Made by a program: the position numbers and the translations under genes. Under the pieces are notes generated by a model. The model was not told the origin of the DNA and did not search any database. It was given only the letters and a program-made list of their open reading frames with translations. Positions 11,149 to 17,252 of a stretch of DNA of 64,000 nt are shown piece after piece; position 1 is the first letter of the stretch, and each line of letters opens with the position of its first letter. Source of the stretch: Cytophagales bacterium (lineage in GTDB: Bacteria > Bacteroidota > Bacteroidia > Cytophagales > Cyclobacteriaceae); the NCBI GenBank assembly GCA_022360015.1, contig JAKSDQ010000062.1, positions 1-64,000 of the forward strand, given 5' to 3'.

Positions 11149-12399
11149 CTACTTAAACCTTTCCGCAATATTCTTCAACCCCTCTACCATGATATCGATT
11201 TCTTCAAAAGTATTGTACAAAGACAGCGATGCCCGTACAGTACCTTCGATATTGAACAGATCCATCAGTGGTTGTGTGCAATGATGTCCTGTTCGCAGAG
11301 CCACTCCCCTGGCGTCCATCATCATGCCGATATCAAAATGATGAATGCCTTCCATAATGAAAGAGACTACACTTATTTTATTTTGTGCGGTACCTATTAG
11401 TTTCACACTGGGGATAGTTTGTAATCTTTCGTTGGCATACTGCAAGAGCTCATCTTCATATTTGCTGATGTTTTCTTTGCCATATGCTTCTACAAACTCC
11501 AGGGCTCTCTTGATAGCTACTACGTCGCCAATGTTGGGGGTACCTGCCTCAAATTTATAAGGAATATCGTTGTAAGTGGTTTTTTCAAAAGTCACTTCCT
11601 TGATCATTTCACCACCGCCTCTGAAAGGAGGCATAGCTTCCAGTAATGGCCTTTTACCATATAAAATGCCAGTCCCGGTGGGGCCGAATAGCTTATGCAT
11701 TGAAAATACATAGAAATCACAGTCCAGATCCTGCATATCGATTTCGATGTGTGCAGAGGCCTGGGCCCCGTCTATCAGAACTTTTGCACCATATTCGTGT
11801 GCTTTTTGTATCACCGCTTTGACCGGATTGATGGTACCCAGGGAATTGGAGATATGCACGATCGAAACCAGCCTGGTTCTTTCGGAAAGCATTTTTTCAA
11901 ACGCCTCAAAAACGATTTCCCCCCGGTCATTGATAGGAATTATTTTAAGTTTGGCTCCTGTCTCTTCGCATAACATCTGCCATGGAACTATGTTTGAATG
12001 GTGTTCCATCGAAGAAATAATGATTTCATCCCCTTCCCCGATGTTGGCCCTTCCAAAGGTACTTGCTATTAAATTGATACCATCTGTAGTGCCATAGGTA
12101 AAGATGATCTCCTCAGCCTCGGGGGCATTCATGAATTCCTTAACGGCCCTTCTGCTTTCCTCAAAAGCCGAAGTAGCCTTTTCGGCCAGTGTATGAATAC
12201 CTCTGTGTATGTTGGCATTGTACCCTGAATAATAATCGGTTAATGCCTCGATAACCCTCAATGGTTTCTGGGTAGTAGCAGCATTGTCAAAGTAAACCAA
12301 CGGTTTTCCGTTTACTTGCTGGTGAAGAATAGGAAACTCCGCCCTGATTTTCCGAATATCGAGGCCGTGCTTGTTTAAAGTTTCGTAGTTGCTACTCAT
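11149..12399 (-). CDS. sufS: SufS cysteine desulfurase
   Basis: 'YFDNAATTQKP', 'FSMHKLFGPTGTGILYGK' and 'RTGHHCTQPLM' motifs. Confidence 0.97.
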   Translation of the reverse strand: MSSNYETLNKHGLDIRKIRAEFPILHQQVNGKPLVYFDNAATTQKPLRVIEALTDYYSGYNANIHRGIHTLAEKATSAFEESRRAVKEFMNAPEAEEIIFTYGTTDGINLIASTFGRANIGEGDEIIISSMEHHSNIVPWQMLCEETGAKLKIIPINDRGEIVFEAFEKMLSERTRLVSIVHISNSLGTINPVKAVIQKAHEYGAKVLIDGAQASAHIEIDMQDLDCDFYVFSMHKLFGPTGTGILYGKRPLLEAMPPFRGGGEMIKEVTFEKTTYNDIPYKFEAGTPNIGDVVAIKRALEFVEAYGKENISKYEDELLQYANERLQTIPSVKLIGTAQNKISVVSFIMEGIHHFDIGMMMDARGVALRTGHHCTQPLMDLFNIEGTVRASLSLYNTFEEIDIMVEGLKNIAERFK

Positions 12400-12408
12400 C
12401 TTGGTTAT

Positions 12409-13779
12409 TTACCGGTTTAAACGGATACTTATATGGTGATCAATGTATTCTTTTAAAACGTCAATTTTAACATTTTCAAGAGCATCGATGGCAAAAGCGT
12501 ATAACAAAAGCGACCTGGCTTCCTGTTCACCCAGTCCCCGGGAACGCAAATAAAATAACTGCTCTTTATCCAACTGACCTGTGGTAGCGCCATGGGAACA
12601 TTTCACATCATCGGCCCATATTTCAAGTTGGGGCTTGGTATTGATACTTGCCTCATCAGAGAGCAGGATGTTTTTATTGGATTGAAAGGCATTTGTTTTT
12701 TGCGCATCCTGCCGCACGTAGATCTTGCCGTTAAAGACCCCGGTTGAATTACCTCCCAATATACCTTTGTAAAGTTCGTTGCTGTATGAGTGAGGCTTTC
12801 TGTGATCTACCATGGTTTGGTTATCAACATGCTGCCGATCATTCAGCAGGTATAAGCCGTGCATATTGGCTTCGCAGTGCTCATCGTCCAGTACCACATT
12901 CAAGTTGTTTCTAATCAGACTACCGGCCAGTGAAATGGTGGTGGTATTGAAGGTGCTTTTACCTGCCTGATATACCTGCGTATTGCCTACATGATAAGCA
13001 TTGTCTCCGTGAATTTCAAGTTTGTAATAATCTATGTAGGCATTTTCATCGACAATTATTTCGCTTACCGTGTTGGTAAAAGCTGCCTCATTGCCATGGT
13101 GAATGTAATTTTCGATGATACTCGCCTGACTGTTTTTACCTGCGATTATCAGGTTTCTTGGCTGAACTGCCCAATTGGCAGCGGTTGATTCGGCTATGGA
13201 ATAAATAACAATTGGCTTGTCGACAACCAGGTTGTCTTTTACTTTAATAAATGTTCCATCGAGCGAAAATGCAGTGTTCAGCGCAGTAAAGGGGTCTTTG
13301 TCAAATTCAGCATATTTGGCAAAGTAGGAGCCTACCAAATCCGGTTGTGACTCATAGGCACTTTTAAAATCGGTGATCTCCAGGCCCTTTAATGTAATAT
13401 CCAGGTTTGACAACTCCTGAGAGAAACGACCATTGATCAAGACGACATTGTAGGCATCGAGACCTTTGATCAATAATTCGCTGATCGCTGCTTTTGAAAT
13501 AGCCGGGATGCCCGGTGAAGCATAATCAAAATTGAATTGTTTCTTCAGCAACCTTGTAATCGGGGTATATTTGTAGTTTTCGGTTTTCCGGTCCGGCATG
13601 CCTAATTGCTCAAATGACCGGATAGCTTTTTTTCTGGTTTGGTGAAAATCTGTGAGACTTTTGCCATTCAATTCCTTTTCAAAAATCCCGAATTGCTCAA
13701 CGAAATTTTTATGTAAATCTATACTATTTGATGCGACCGTCATTGTCCTTATTTCATTTTTATAACAGAAAATAAACAA
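12409..13779 (-). CDS. sufD: SufD Fe-S cluster assembly protein
   Basis: 'DDVKCSHGATTGQLDKEQLFYLRSRGL' SufB/D signature; probable start at the internal Met (MTVASNS). Confidence 0.95.
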   Translation of the reverse strand: MFIFCYKNEIRTMTVASNSIDLHKNFVEQFGIFEKELNGKSLTDFHQTRKKAIRSFEQLGMPDRKTENYKYTPITRLLKKQFNFDYASPGIPAISKAAISELLIKGLDAYNVVLINGRFSQELSNLDITLKGLEITDFKSAYESQPDLVGSYFAKYAEFDKDPFTALNTAFSLDGTFIKVKDNLVVDKPIVIYSIAESTAANWAVQPRNLIIAGKNSQASIIENYIHHGNEAAFTNTVSEIIVDENAYIDYYKLEIHGDNAYHVGNTQVYQAGKSTFNTTTISLAGSLIRNNLNVVLDDEHCEANMHGLYLLNDRQHVDNQTMVDHRKPHSYSNELYKGILGGNSTGVFNGKIYVRQDAQKTNAFQSNKNILLSDEASINTKPQLEIWADDVKCSHGATTGQLDKEQLFYLRSRGLGEQEARSLLLYAFAIDALENVKIDVLKEYIDHHISIRLNR

Positions 13780-13785
13780 GCTGGA

Positions 13786-14541
13786 TTAATGGATAGGCTC
13801 TGCCTCCTTGATCCAGTCATAACCCTTTTCTTCCAGCTCCAGTGCCAATTCTTTAGGGCCGGATTTTACGATTTTTCCATTGTATAAAACATGGACGAAA
13901 TCAGGAACTATGTAGTCCAGCAGCCGCTGATAGTGGGTTACTACAATCGTTGCATTGTCTTTAGACTTTAAAGTGTTCACCCCATTGGCCACTACTTTTA
14001 GCGCATCGATATCCAGCCCGGAGTCTGTTTCATCCAGCACAGCAAGTCTGGGCTCCAGCATGGCCATCTGGAATATTTCATTACGTTTTTTTTCACCTCC
14101 TGAAAAGCCTTCATTCAATGACCTGTTTAACAGGGATTTATCAATCTCAACCAGCTTTATTTTCTCTTTCATTAACGACAGAAACGATACTGCGTCCAGG
14201 GGGTCCAAACCTCTGTGCTCACGTATCTGATTCAGTGCGGTTTTAAGAAAATTGGTAGAGCTGACACCTGGTATTTCAACGGGATACTGGAACGCAAGAA
14301 ACAGCCCTTCCCTGGCCCTTTCTTCTGCTTCCAACTCCAGTAAGTCTTTTCCCAGAAATTCAATGCTGCCTTCTGTCACCTCATAGTCCTCCCTGCCTGC
14401 GAGTACGGAGGCCAGGGTACTTTTTCCGGAACCGTTAGGTCCCATGATGGCATGTACCTCCCCGGGCTTTACCTCCAGATTGATGCCTTTTAATATTTGT
14501 TTATCTTCTATAGAAGCATGCAGATTCTTAATGCTTAACAT
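13786..14541 (-). CDS. sufC: SufC Fe-S cluster assembly ATPase
   Basis: Walker A 'GPNGSGKST', signature '[14 protein letters not shown]', '[11 protein letters not shown]'. Confidence 0.97.
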
Positions 14542-14649
14542 TTTTGTTCGATTTAGTAATAATTATTTGAAAGCTTTTAACAGATCTTTTAAGCTGCCAT
14601 CTCGTACCGGATGGCAGGGTAAAAAATCTTCTGTTAGAGTTCAATAAGT

Positions 14650-16095
14650 TTAACCTACGCTGCCTTCAAGTGTCAGCGCCAGCAACTTTTGAGCCTCGAC
14701 CGCAAATTCCATCGGTAGTTGATTGAGTACCTCCTTACAGTAACCATTTACGATCAGGGCCACCGCACTTTCTTCATCGATACCTCTTTGCAAACAATAA
14801 AAAATCTGATCTTCACCAATTTTAGATGTGGTTGCTTCGTGCTCAATCTGCGCTGAATTGTTGCTGGTTTCAATGTATGGGAAAGTATGAGCCCCACATT
14901 TGTCACCCATCAGCAATGAATCACATTGAGAGTGGTTTCTGGCATTTTTGGCGCGTTTGTGGATTTGTACAAGTCCGCGATAACTGTTTTGACTTTGTCC
15001 GGCAGAGACCCCTTTGGAAACGATGCGGCTCCTGGTATTTTTACCCAGGTGGATCATTTTGGTGCCTGTATCTGCCTGCTGCCAGTTGTTGGTGACCGCT
15101 ACAGAGTAAAATTCTCCGACAGAATGATCGCCTTTTAAAATGCAGCTAGGATATTTCCAGGTGATGGCTGAACCGGTTTCCACTTGCGTCCATGAGATCT
15201 TGGAATGATCGCCGGCACAAATACCTCTTTTTGTTACAAAATTATATATGCCACCTTTTCCGTCTTTATCACCCGGATACCAGTTTTGTACGGTAGAGTA
15301 TTTTATCTCTGCATGGTCGCAAGCATATAATTCTACCACTGCCGCGTGCAACTGGTTTTCATCCCGCATCGGCGCTGTGCAACCTTCCAGGTAGCTTACA
15401 TAAGAGCCCTCGTCAGCTATGATCAAGGTTCTTTCAAATTGCCCGGTATTTGCCGCATTGATCCGGAAATACGTGGATAATTCCATGGGACATCTCACTC
15501 CTTTAGGAATATAACAGAAAGAGCCATCAGAAAAAACTGCGGAATTTAACGCTGCAAAATAATTGTCATTTACCGGAACGACAGAACCTATATATTTTTT
15601 CACCAGTTCAGGGTGTTCCTGTACAGCTTCACTGAAAGAGCAAAAAATAATTCCTAACTCAGCCAGTTTATCTTTAAAGGTAGTAGCCACTGACACACTG
15701 TCTATGACAGCATCGACTGCAACCCCTGTCAATCTTTTTTGCTCATCCAGGGATATACCGAGTTTTTCAAAAGTCTCTCTTAATTCCGGATCCACCTCGT
15801 CCAGGCTTTTGGGGGCCACCTTTTGCTTGGGCGCAGAATAGTAGATGATATCCTGATAGTTTATTTCCGGATAGCTAACATTAGGCCATTTCGGTTCCTT
15901 GAGTGTGAGCCAGTGCCTGTAAGCTTTCAACCGCCACTCCAACATCCATTCAGGTTCATTTTTTTTGCTGGAAATGAACCGTATAATGTCTTCATTAAGG
16001 CCTTTGGGTGCTGAATCTGCTTCTATATTGGACTCAAAACCATATTTATATTCAGAGGAAGTTAGTTCTTCTAATATTTCAGTGTCTTTACTCAT
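14650..16095 (-). CDS. sufB: SufB Fe-S cluster scaffold
   Basis: '[51 protein letters not shown]' and '[17 protein letters not shown]'. Confidence 0.97.
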
Positions 16096-16327: not shown

Positions 16328-16807
16328 TTATAGATCTAACTGAATGTGGCGATTAAGTGTTTCTTCCAGGGAGATAAAGGTTTCGGTTCTTTCTATACCT
16401 TCGACTTTTTGGATTTTATCGTGCAATACTTCTCTTAAATGCTTGGTATCGCGACAATGAATTTTGATAAATATACTATAGTTACCAGTTGTATAGTGAA
16501 TTTTCACGATTTCCGGTATAGCTCTCAAATCTGTGGTTACCTGATCATATAAGGAATTCTTCTCCAAGTAAATACCCATAAATGCGGTAATGTCGACACC
16601 CATTTTTGAATAATCCATTTTAAGGGTGGTGCCTTTAACTACACCCATTTCTTCCAGCTTCCTCATTCTAACATGAACCGTACCCCCTGACACATATACT
16701 TTCTTAGCAATTTCCGTATATGGAATCTTAGCATCATCCATTAAAAGGGATAATATCTTAAGATCTATTTTGTCAATTTCATAATTTTTATCCGCTTTGG
16801 AATCCAT
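16328..16807 (-). CDS. Lrp/AsnC family transcriptional regulator
   Basis: 'IDLKILSLLMDDAKIPYTEIAKKVYVSGGTVHVRMRKLEEMGVVKG' HTH plus RAM domain. Confidence 0.95.
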   Translation of the reverse strand: MDSKADKNYEIDKIDLKILSLLMDDAKIPYTEIAKKVYVSGGTVHVRMRKLEEMGVVKGTTLKMDYSKMGVDITAFMGIYLEKNSLYDQVTTDLRAIPEIVKIHYTTGNYSIFIKIHCRDTKHLREVLHDKIQKVEGIERTETFISLEETLNRHIQLDL

Positions 16808-16938
16808 ATTTTGAGATATTTATAATATATTTTATGCAAAAATAAATGAAATGTAAATTTTTAGCAAATTTATTAAAAAAATTTTAATTTTTTTTCTTAT
16901 CTATTAAATTTGTAATCACAAAATAGTTAAATATATAC

Positions 16939-17060
16939 TGTAGGGTGTTGAAATTGGCAGACAAGCCCTCCTGTCTCGAGGGTGGAGATCACTGGATAAA
17001 CTACATATAGAGCTTGTGTGTAGCTAACTTCTCCGTGGAGGTTCGAGTCCTTCCCCTACA
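16939..17060 (+). tRNA. Atypical class-II tRNA or tRNA-like RNA (GUC anticodon triplet, 54-nt variable arm)
   Basis: Acceptor TGTAGGG/CCCTACA (7 bp); D arm TTG-AAATTGGCAGA-CAA; anticodon arm CCCTC-CTGTCTC-GAGGG; variable arm GGAG(16984-16987)/CTCC(17031-17034) with inner stem CTACATA(17001-17007)/TGTGTAG(17017-17023); T arm GGAGG-TTCGAGT-CCTTC; then G and CTTTTTTT. Confidence 0.8.
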
Positions 17061-17252
17061 GCTTTTTTTGGGTTTATGTTGTTTATTTATTAAAGGGGTT
17101 GCTTATGTAACCTCTTTTTATTTTGTCCAATCTTGATTATTTTTAGCAACTTTATTTATTTTCGGATAAGCGGTTACTGTTTAATTTTTTTCCGAAAATA
17201 GCATGTTGATTTAATTTAAGTTAGTTCATTCATTTTACCCAAAGCGAAAAGT

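Follow-up and report, generated by a model that had tools for sequence, protein, structure and literature searches.

An unusual tRNA-like element in a Cytophagales genome belongs to a real, conserved RNA gene family and is no one-off. We propose, with a probability of roughly 60%, that it is a dedicated non-decoding tRNA-like RNA that would be charged by AspRS and amidated to asparagine by GatCAB, under the control of an AsnC-like regulator. The wider claim, that Bacteroidota and the phages carrying the gene use an AsnC-like-regulated non-decoding tRNA as the carrier for AspRS/GatCAB asparagine synthesis, with amino-acid biosynthesis as its sole job, we consider slightly better than an even bet. 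We infer charging and amidation from determinants defined in other bacteria. If the proposal is right, tRNA-dependent amino-acid synthesis would be uncoupled from translation, strict AspRS, AsnRS and GlnRS would be compatible with feedback-controlled RNA-dependent asparagine synthesis, the retention of GatB in many Bacteroidota having both AsnRS and GlnRS would be accounted for, and the tRNA arrays of some phages would include a metabolic RNA.

The element lies in the window, the whole stretch of 64,000 nucleotides that was analysed (contig JAKSDQ010000062.1 of assembly GCA_022360015.1), where the following features were located.

16328..16807, reverse strand: gene for an AsnC-like regulator of the Lrp/AsnC family, transcribed away from the RNA across a gap of 131 bp (divergent pair)
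16905..16912, forward strand: Bacteroidota -7 promoter element TAAATTTG (TAnnTTTG)
16939..17062, forward strand: tRNA-like RNA gene, comprising a 7-bp acceptor, Leu-type D arm, Asp-type anticodon loop, long variable arm, T arm, G73 and C74
16939-16945/17054-17060, forward strand: acceptor TGTAGGG/CCCTACA, read from the sequence
Within the gene, forward strand: D arm TTG/CAA with loop AAATTGGCAGA, read from the sequence
Within the gene, forward strand: anticodon stem CCCTC/GAGGG, read from the sequence
16971..16977, forward strand: anticodon loop CUGUCUC (positions 32-38; CTGTCTC in DNA), in which G34, U35, C36 and C38 are AspRS determinants and U37 stands against the A37 of tRNA-Asp
16984..17034, forward strand: variable arm with basal stem GGAG/CTCC
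16994-17000/17024-17028, forward strand: conserved internal loop of the variable arm, GGAUAAA/CUAAC
17001-17007/17017-17023, forward strand: covarying distal hairpin CTACATA/TGTGTAG
Within the gene, forward strand: T arm GGAGG/TTCGAGT/CCTTC, read from the sequence
17061..17062, forward strand: G73 (17061) and C74 (17062), invariant in 260 of 260 family members
17067..17087, forward strand: lineage-conserved 3' trailer (TTTGGGTTTATGTTGTTTATT)
17092..17118, forward strand: terminator-like hairpin with a T run (AAAGGGGTTGC..GTAACCTCTTTTT), read directly from the sequence

Rereading the sequence bore out the arms, stems and loops described over 16939-17060 in the original prediction; because G73 and C74 belong to the gene, its 3' end was extended to 17062. 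The absence of an encoded CCA had also been remarked on, and the letters were read correctly. This is no anomaly, since at least C74 is likewise encoded after the discriminator in 37 listed ordinary tRNA genes of this genome. The genome's own tRNA-Leu shares with the tRNA-like RNA its D-loop, T44, the position of the variable stem and the GU 5' of the T stem. The combination of a Leu-like body, G73 and an Asp (GUC) loop had been recognized correctly and is conserved across the family, which marks the mixture as functional rather than accidental. ARAGORN, one of the checks suggested at the outset, made no call on the window's element, an Rfam search of it gave no match among 4227 families, and single-sequence folding was only mildly better than chance (z -1.56); a comparative test was thus needed. 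The promoter element is found 15-75 nt upstream of 116 of 220 bacterial copies, against about 4% expected from shuffles.

Homologues were found with blastn (151-base query) in 45 of 61 relatives, and a covariance model, also among the suggested checks, was built from 29 of the blastn homologues. The model yields two clearly separate groups, with true members scoring at least 72 bits and measuring at least 110 nt in bacteria, and ordinary tRNA-Leu scoring at most 67 bits and measuring 84-89 nt. At this cut-off 44 of the 61 relatives are positive; two more carry a homologue that is cut by a contig end or has no variable arm, bringing the RNA-positive relatives to 46. Among the matches listed in a GTDB pattern scan were Cytophagales, Sphingobacteriales, Chitinophagales/Saprospiraceae, some Flavobacteriales MAGs and an Ignavibacteriales MAG, and all named matches among those listed were Bacteroidota, apart from one record labelled 'bacterium' only. 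Across 300 sampled Bacteroidota genomes, most families beyond these groups lack the RNA. A large tRNA-like family has been overlooked by ARAGORN and Rfam in genera as well studied as Hymenobacter, Pedobacter, Chitinophaga and Dyadobacter.

The fold is maintained by compensatory change. In 128 distinct sequences outside the model-building set, 96.1% of cells are paired and 21 pairs have changed on both sides, with 579 cells showing such changes, a level reached by 0 of 500 shuffles. Over two alignments pairing stands at 95-96% of cells and covariation is far above shuffled and slid controls; it is seen in every arm, and both tests detected it in the 17001-17023 stem, where the original prediction had proposed to look. 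Drifting, non-covarying stems or an ordinary Leu or Ser tRNA at this locus in relatives would have spoken against a dedicated RNA; the stems covary, and in relatives the position is occupied by the same long-armed RNA.

The acceptor has 7 bp and the T stem 5 bp throughout the family. Variable arms span 28-120 nt (13 nt in one phage form) and are built around the conserved internal loop, with distal hairpins of several types, and some copies, including 14 of 32 from phages, have an extra hairpin inserted in the D loop. The homologue in one relative (G051, L272/L276) has lost the variable arm wholly and has a new anticodon stem, with the loop CUAUCUC and G73C74 kept; ARAGORN calls it tRNA-Asp(atc). 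A variable-arm submodule, GGGUNGACCAC, a possible GUNGA pentaloop hairpin, is present in 104 of 260 members (for example L085, L087, L100 and phage loci) and is lacking in the window's copy. Tandem arrays also occur, with two to four diverged copies per genome that differ in their variable arms and are spaced by about 160-900 nt or more (L061, L063, L064, L077 and L080).

The strong determinants of aspartate identity are G73, G34, U35, C36 and C38, and both G1-C72 and G2-C71 are conserved in bacterial tRNA-Asp (PMC9976931). As the pattern-scan loci were selected by their loop, loop statistics rest on 78 members found by blastn or the covariance model without use of the loop. In these unbiased members U35, C36, C38, G73 and G2-C71 are each present in 78 of 78 and G34 in 75; the whole AspRS set (G73, G34, U35, C36, C38 and G2-C71) is complete in 75 of 78, and in 240 of 260 overall. 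G34 is replaced by A or C in 19 of 260, chiefly in some Hymenobacter- or Pontibacter-like copies. U33 occurs in 54 of the 78, position 37 is U, C or G and never A (0/78), and U33 with a purine at 37 is found in 2; the genome's own tRNA-Asp has the loop CUGUCAC where the tRNA-like RNA has CUGUCUC. With the AspRS set near-invariant and U33 and A37 not kept, the determinants read by the synthetase have been retained and those read by the ribosome lost. Other features of tRNA-Asp are absent or mostly absent (G1-C72 in 0 of 260, G10 in 54 of 260), for which reason charging may be weak.

A U1-A72 pair makes Asp-tRNA a substrate for the amidotransferase, and G1-C72 and U20a prevent its amidation (PMC9976931). 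U1-A72 is present in 256 of 260 members overall and in 78 of 78 unbiased ones, and position 20a is A in 260 of 260, never U. Together with the AspRS set, this makes the RNA look like an AspRS substrate that is also fit for GatCAB.

From U1-A72 without U20a an association with gatB was to be expected, and we went on to test it, using gatB as the one GatCAB gene by which presence of the amidotransferase was judged. Among the 61 relatives, 46 have both RNA and gatB, none has the RNA without gatB, six have gatB without the RNA and nine have neither (Fisher p 3e-7). Because genomes without GlnRS need GatCAB for Gln-tRNA, GlnRS was searched as well. All six genomes with gatB and no RNA are without GlnRS, so GatCAB is needed there for Gln-tRNA; the 33 GlnRS-positive relatives comprise 26 with RNA and gatB and seven with neither, with no mixed case (p 2e-7). 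By a hand count over 74 sampled genomes of the same class, 33 have gatB, of which 30 carry the RNA, and none of the 41 genomes lacking gatB carries it (p 1e-17); these p-values treat genomes as independent, and shared ancestry inflates their significance. RNA and gatB are jointly absent in at least three otherwise RNA-bearing families (the window's own, f23 and f24), and in one lineage (G010) the regulator and the next gene, fadD, are kept while RNA and gatB are both lost. In other classes gatB is commonly present without the RNA.

The window's genome encodes AsnRS, GlnRS, GatB and one bacterial AspRS; with AsnRS and GlnRS both present, neither Asn-tRNA nor Gln-tRNA formation there calls for GatB. 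We rejected the idea that the RNA replaces asnA or is a simple substitute for an asparagine synthetase, since asnA is no rarer with the RNA (7 of 46 RNA-positive and 3 of 15 RNA-negative relatives; p 0.70) and asnB-type genes are common. A dedicated second AspRS was likewise discarded, as each genome searched has one full bacterial aspS, except one relative (G023; C84 and C293) that has a second, split aspS-like gene in addition to its intact copy.

At 116 of 205 loci the RNA has a Lrp/AsnC-family gene as its divergent neighbour, and the gap between the two has quartiles of 131, 146 and 159 bp. A second tally of neighbours showed this gene to be divergent every time (111 of 111), and the next commonest neighbour was found at 29 loci. 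RNA and regulator are not adjacent in one subclade of the window's family, nor in f27, one other family of the class. A leucine/Lrp reading of this neighbour was dropped in favour of AsnC after comparison with NCBIfam and PDB. For nine sampled regulators from several lineages AsnC is the best NCBIfam model, at 156-181 bits (157 for the window's protein) with the next best at most 87, all nine scores lying below the AsnC equivalog cut-off of 227 bits. E. coli AsnC matches the neighbour at 112 bits and Lrp at 61, and the alignment with AsnC retains the YTTG-YSIFIK-CR stretch. This identity emerged later than the AspRS reading of the loop and did not draw on it. The asnA gene of E. coli, encoding an Asp-to-Asn enzyme, is activated by AsnC, and asparagine abolishes the activation (PMC4482635). 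A strong shared palindrome between RNA and regulator, as a candidate AsnC site, was not borne out: palindromes with arms of at least 9 bp occur in 9.5% of loci against 3.1% expected, a weak enrichment. Beyond the AsnC-like gene, the reverse strand carries suf Fe-S cluster assembly genes (11149-16095, from ORF sequences), of which sufB is a conserved neighbour in the order.

We propose that the RNA is processed as a tRNA and has CCA added, that AspRS would charge it with aspartate and that GatCAB would then amidate this aspartate to asparagine. An Asn-charged RNA with an Asp anticodon would, if it entered the ribosome, insert asparagine at Asp codons; it may be kept off by its enlarged variable and D arms together with the family's loss of U33 and A37. 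The AsnC-like protein would tune transcription to the supply of asparagine or aspartate, much as AsnC acts on asnA in E. coli. There is precedent for such a dependence: S. aureus has AsnRS and no asparagine synthetase, and its asparagine depends on RNA-dependent amidation (PMC6523644).

The family extends to phages. Matches were found on 38 viral contigs, all of which carry true members by the covariance model. In the contigs that were scanned for tRNAs, these members sit inside tRNA arrays, often with tmRNA, and a few bases from the adjoining gene; one such contig (L263) codes for a clamp loader and for a DNA polymerase of phage type. The full Asp determinant set is present in 32 of 32 distinct phage copies, which were chosen by loop pattern, so that the independent evidence from them is limited to G73, G2-C71 and covarying acceptor stems. 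On two of the viral contigs the RNA is flanked by tRNA-Ser(tga) and the phage tmRNA gene (L241 4947-5118 and L247 1315-1485). Cultured-phage records gave no blastn match to the RNA. Such copies might support the host's asparagine supply during infection.

The main rival to a carrier for asparagine synthesis is an AspRS-binding regulatory RNA, a decoy or sensor that, charged or not, would gauge or limit aspartylation under AsnC-like control without any role for GatCAB. The retention of Asp determinants alongside the loss of decoding determinants, the adjoining AsnC-like gene and the known regulatory tRNA-like decoys and pseudo-tRNAs (PMC3399842) all accord with it, and the elaborate variable arm with its conserved internal loop hints at another partner protein. 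It leaves unexplained both the near-invariant U1-A72 without U20a and the tight co-occurrence with gatB in GlnRS-positive genomes, and we regard it as possible though unlikely. We think it quite improbable that the functional part is instead an antisense sRNA, acting through its 3' trailer or its loop, with the tRNA fold merely a scaffold for processing or stability. The trailer is indeed conserved between RNA and terminator downstream of many copies, of the GGGTTTATGTTGTTTATT type in Cytophagales and the AGGTTTATAATTGGTTAG type in Sphingobacteriaceae (57 of 256 copies, with about 7 expected), and at one locus (L279) promoter and trailer persist where the tRNA-like body is gone; most members and the phage copies, however, have no trailer, and U1-A72 and the gatB link would go unaccounted for. 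Contiguous antisense pairing by the loop is further disfavoured by the variable position 37 amid invariant neighbours, a pattern that seems to suit recognition by a protein better. Anti-Shine-Dalgarno pairing through the CCUCC of the anticodon stem was also rejected, because the stem varies with compensation (CCGTC/GACGG, CCCGC/GCGGG, CCGCC/GGCGG) while the loop stays constant.

The original prediction had left three options, of which a tRNA-derived non-translational RNA fits best. Its second option, a decoding tRNA charged by SerRS or LeuRS that would insert Ser or Leu at Asp codons in the manner of Ser-accepting allo-tRNAs, now appears very improbable. The determinants of SerRS do include G73 and a large variable arm, and many allo-tRNAs have a GUC anticodon (PMC7609411), but the LeuRS determinant A73 occurs in 0 of 260 members and the remaining SerRS bases are essentially absent (position 72 is A in 256 of 260, not C; C11-G24 in 11; G30-C40 in 2). 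The near-absence of U33 with a purine at 37, the 7/5 rather than 8/4 or 9/3 acceptor and T arms, and the homologue that lost its variable arm yet kept its loop and G73 speak against it too. The idea of a missing Leu tRNA was dropped: the prediction had asked whether a normal tRNA-Asp and complete Leu and Ser sets are present, and the tRNA-Asp is there, as, on the leucine side, are two tRNA-Leu(UAA)-like sequences beside a tRNA-Gly, so that the Leu set looks complete. The third option, a pseudogene or remnant, has in its favour that neither ARAGORN nor Rfam recognizes the element; hundreds of compensatory changes, invariant functional positions, the promoter, synteny and the phage copies refute it, and we give it practically no weight.

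RNA-dependent asparagine synthesis on tRNA-Asn (PMC6523644) and pseudo-tRNAs with extra-translational roles (PMC3399842) are already known; a literature search of limited coverage found no description of this family or of any dedicated non-decoding tRNA for amino-acid synthesis. With bacterial tRNA-Asp(GUC) the RNA has in common G73, G34, U35, C36, C38 and G2-C71, the genome's own loop differing at position 37 only; it departs from it in its class II, Leu-type body, U1-A72 for G1-C72, the lack of U20a, U37, a U33 that is not kept and a very long variable arm. Like tRNA-Asn as the substrate of Asp-AdT (GatCAB) in the transamidosome pathway, it has U1-A72 and G73, lacks U20a and co-occurs with gatB, whereas it has C36 for U36 and does not decode normally, and AsnRS is also present here. 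In S. aureus, Deinococcus, Thermus and Helicobacter, RNA-made asparagine is formed on a decoding tRNA-Asn with a relaxed AspRS (PMC6523644). Bacterial tRNA-Leu, the next-best match of the model, shares the D-loop, T44, the placement of the variable stem and the GU before the T stem, and differs in having A73 for G73, no Asp loop and no variable arm of 28-120 nt. Allo-tRNAs and selC tRNA-Cys are also class II tRNA-like RNAs with unexpected anticodons, GUC being common among allo-tRNAs (PMC7609411); unlike our RNA, allo-tRNAs combine acceptor/T arms of 8/4 or 9/3 with SerRS identity, are usable in translation, and have been described in Clostridia, Proteobacteria and Acidobacteria. Bacillus cereus tRNA-Other and other pseudo-tRNAs are likewise tRNA-like RNAs with an extra-translational role (PMC3399842), as we propose for this family, although tRNA-Other has a Trp anticodon, belongs to another lineage with other partners and has no described link to GatB or AsnC.
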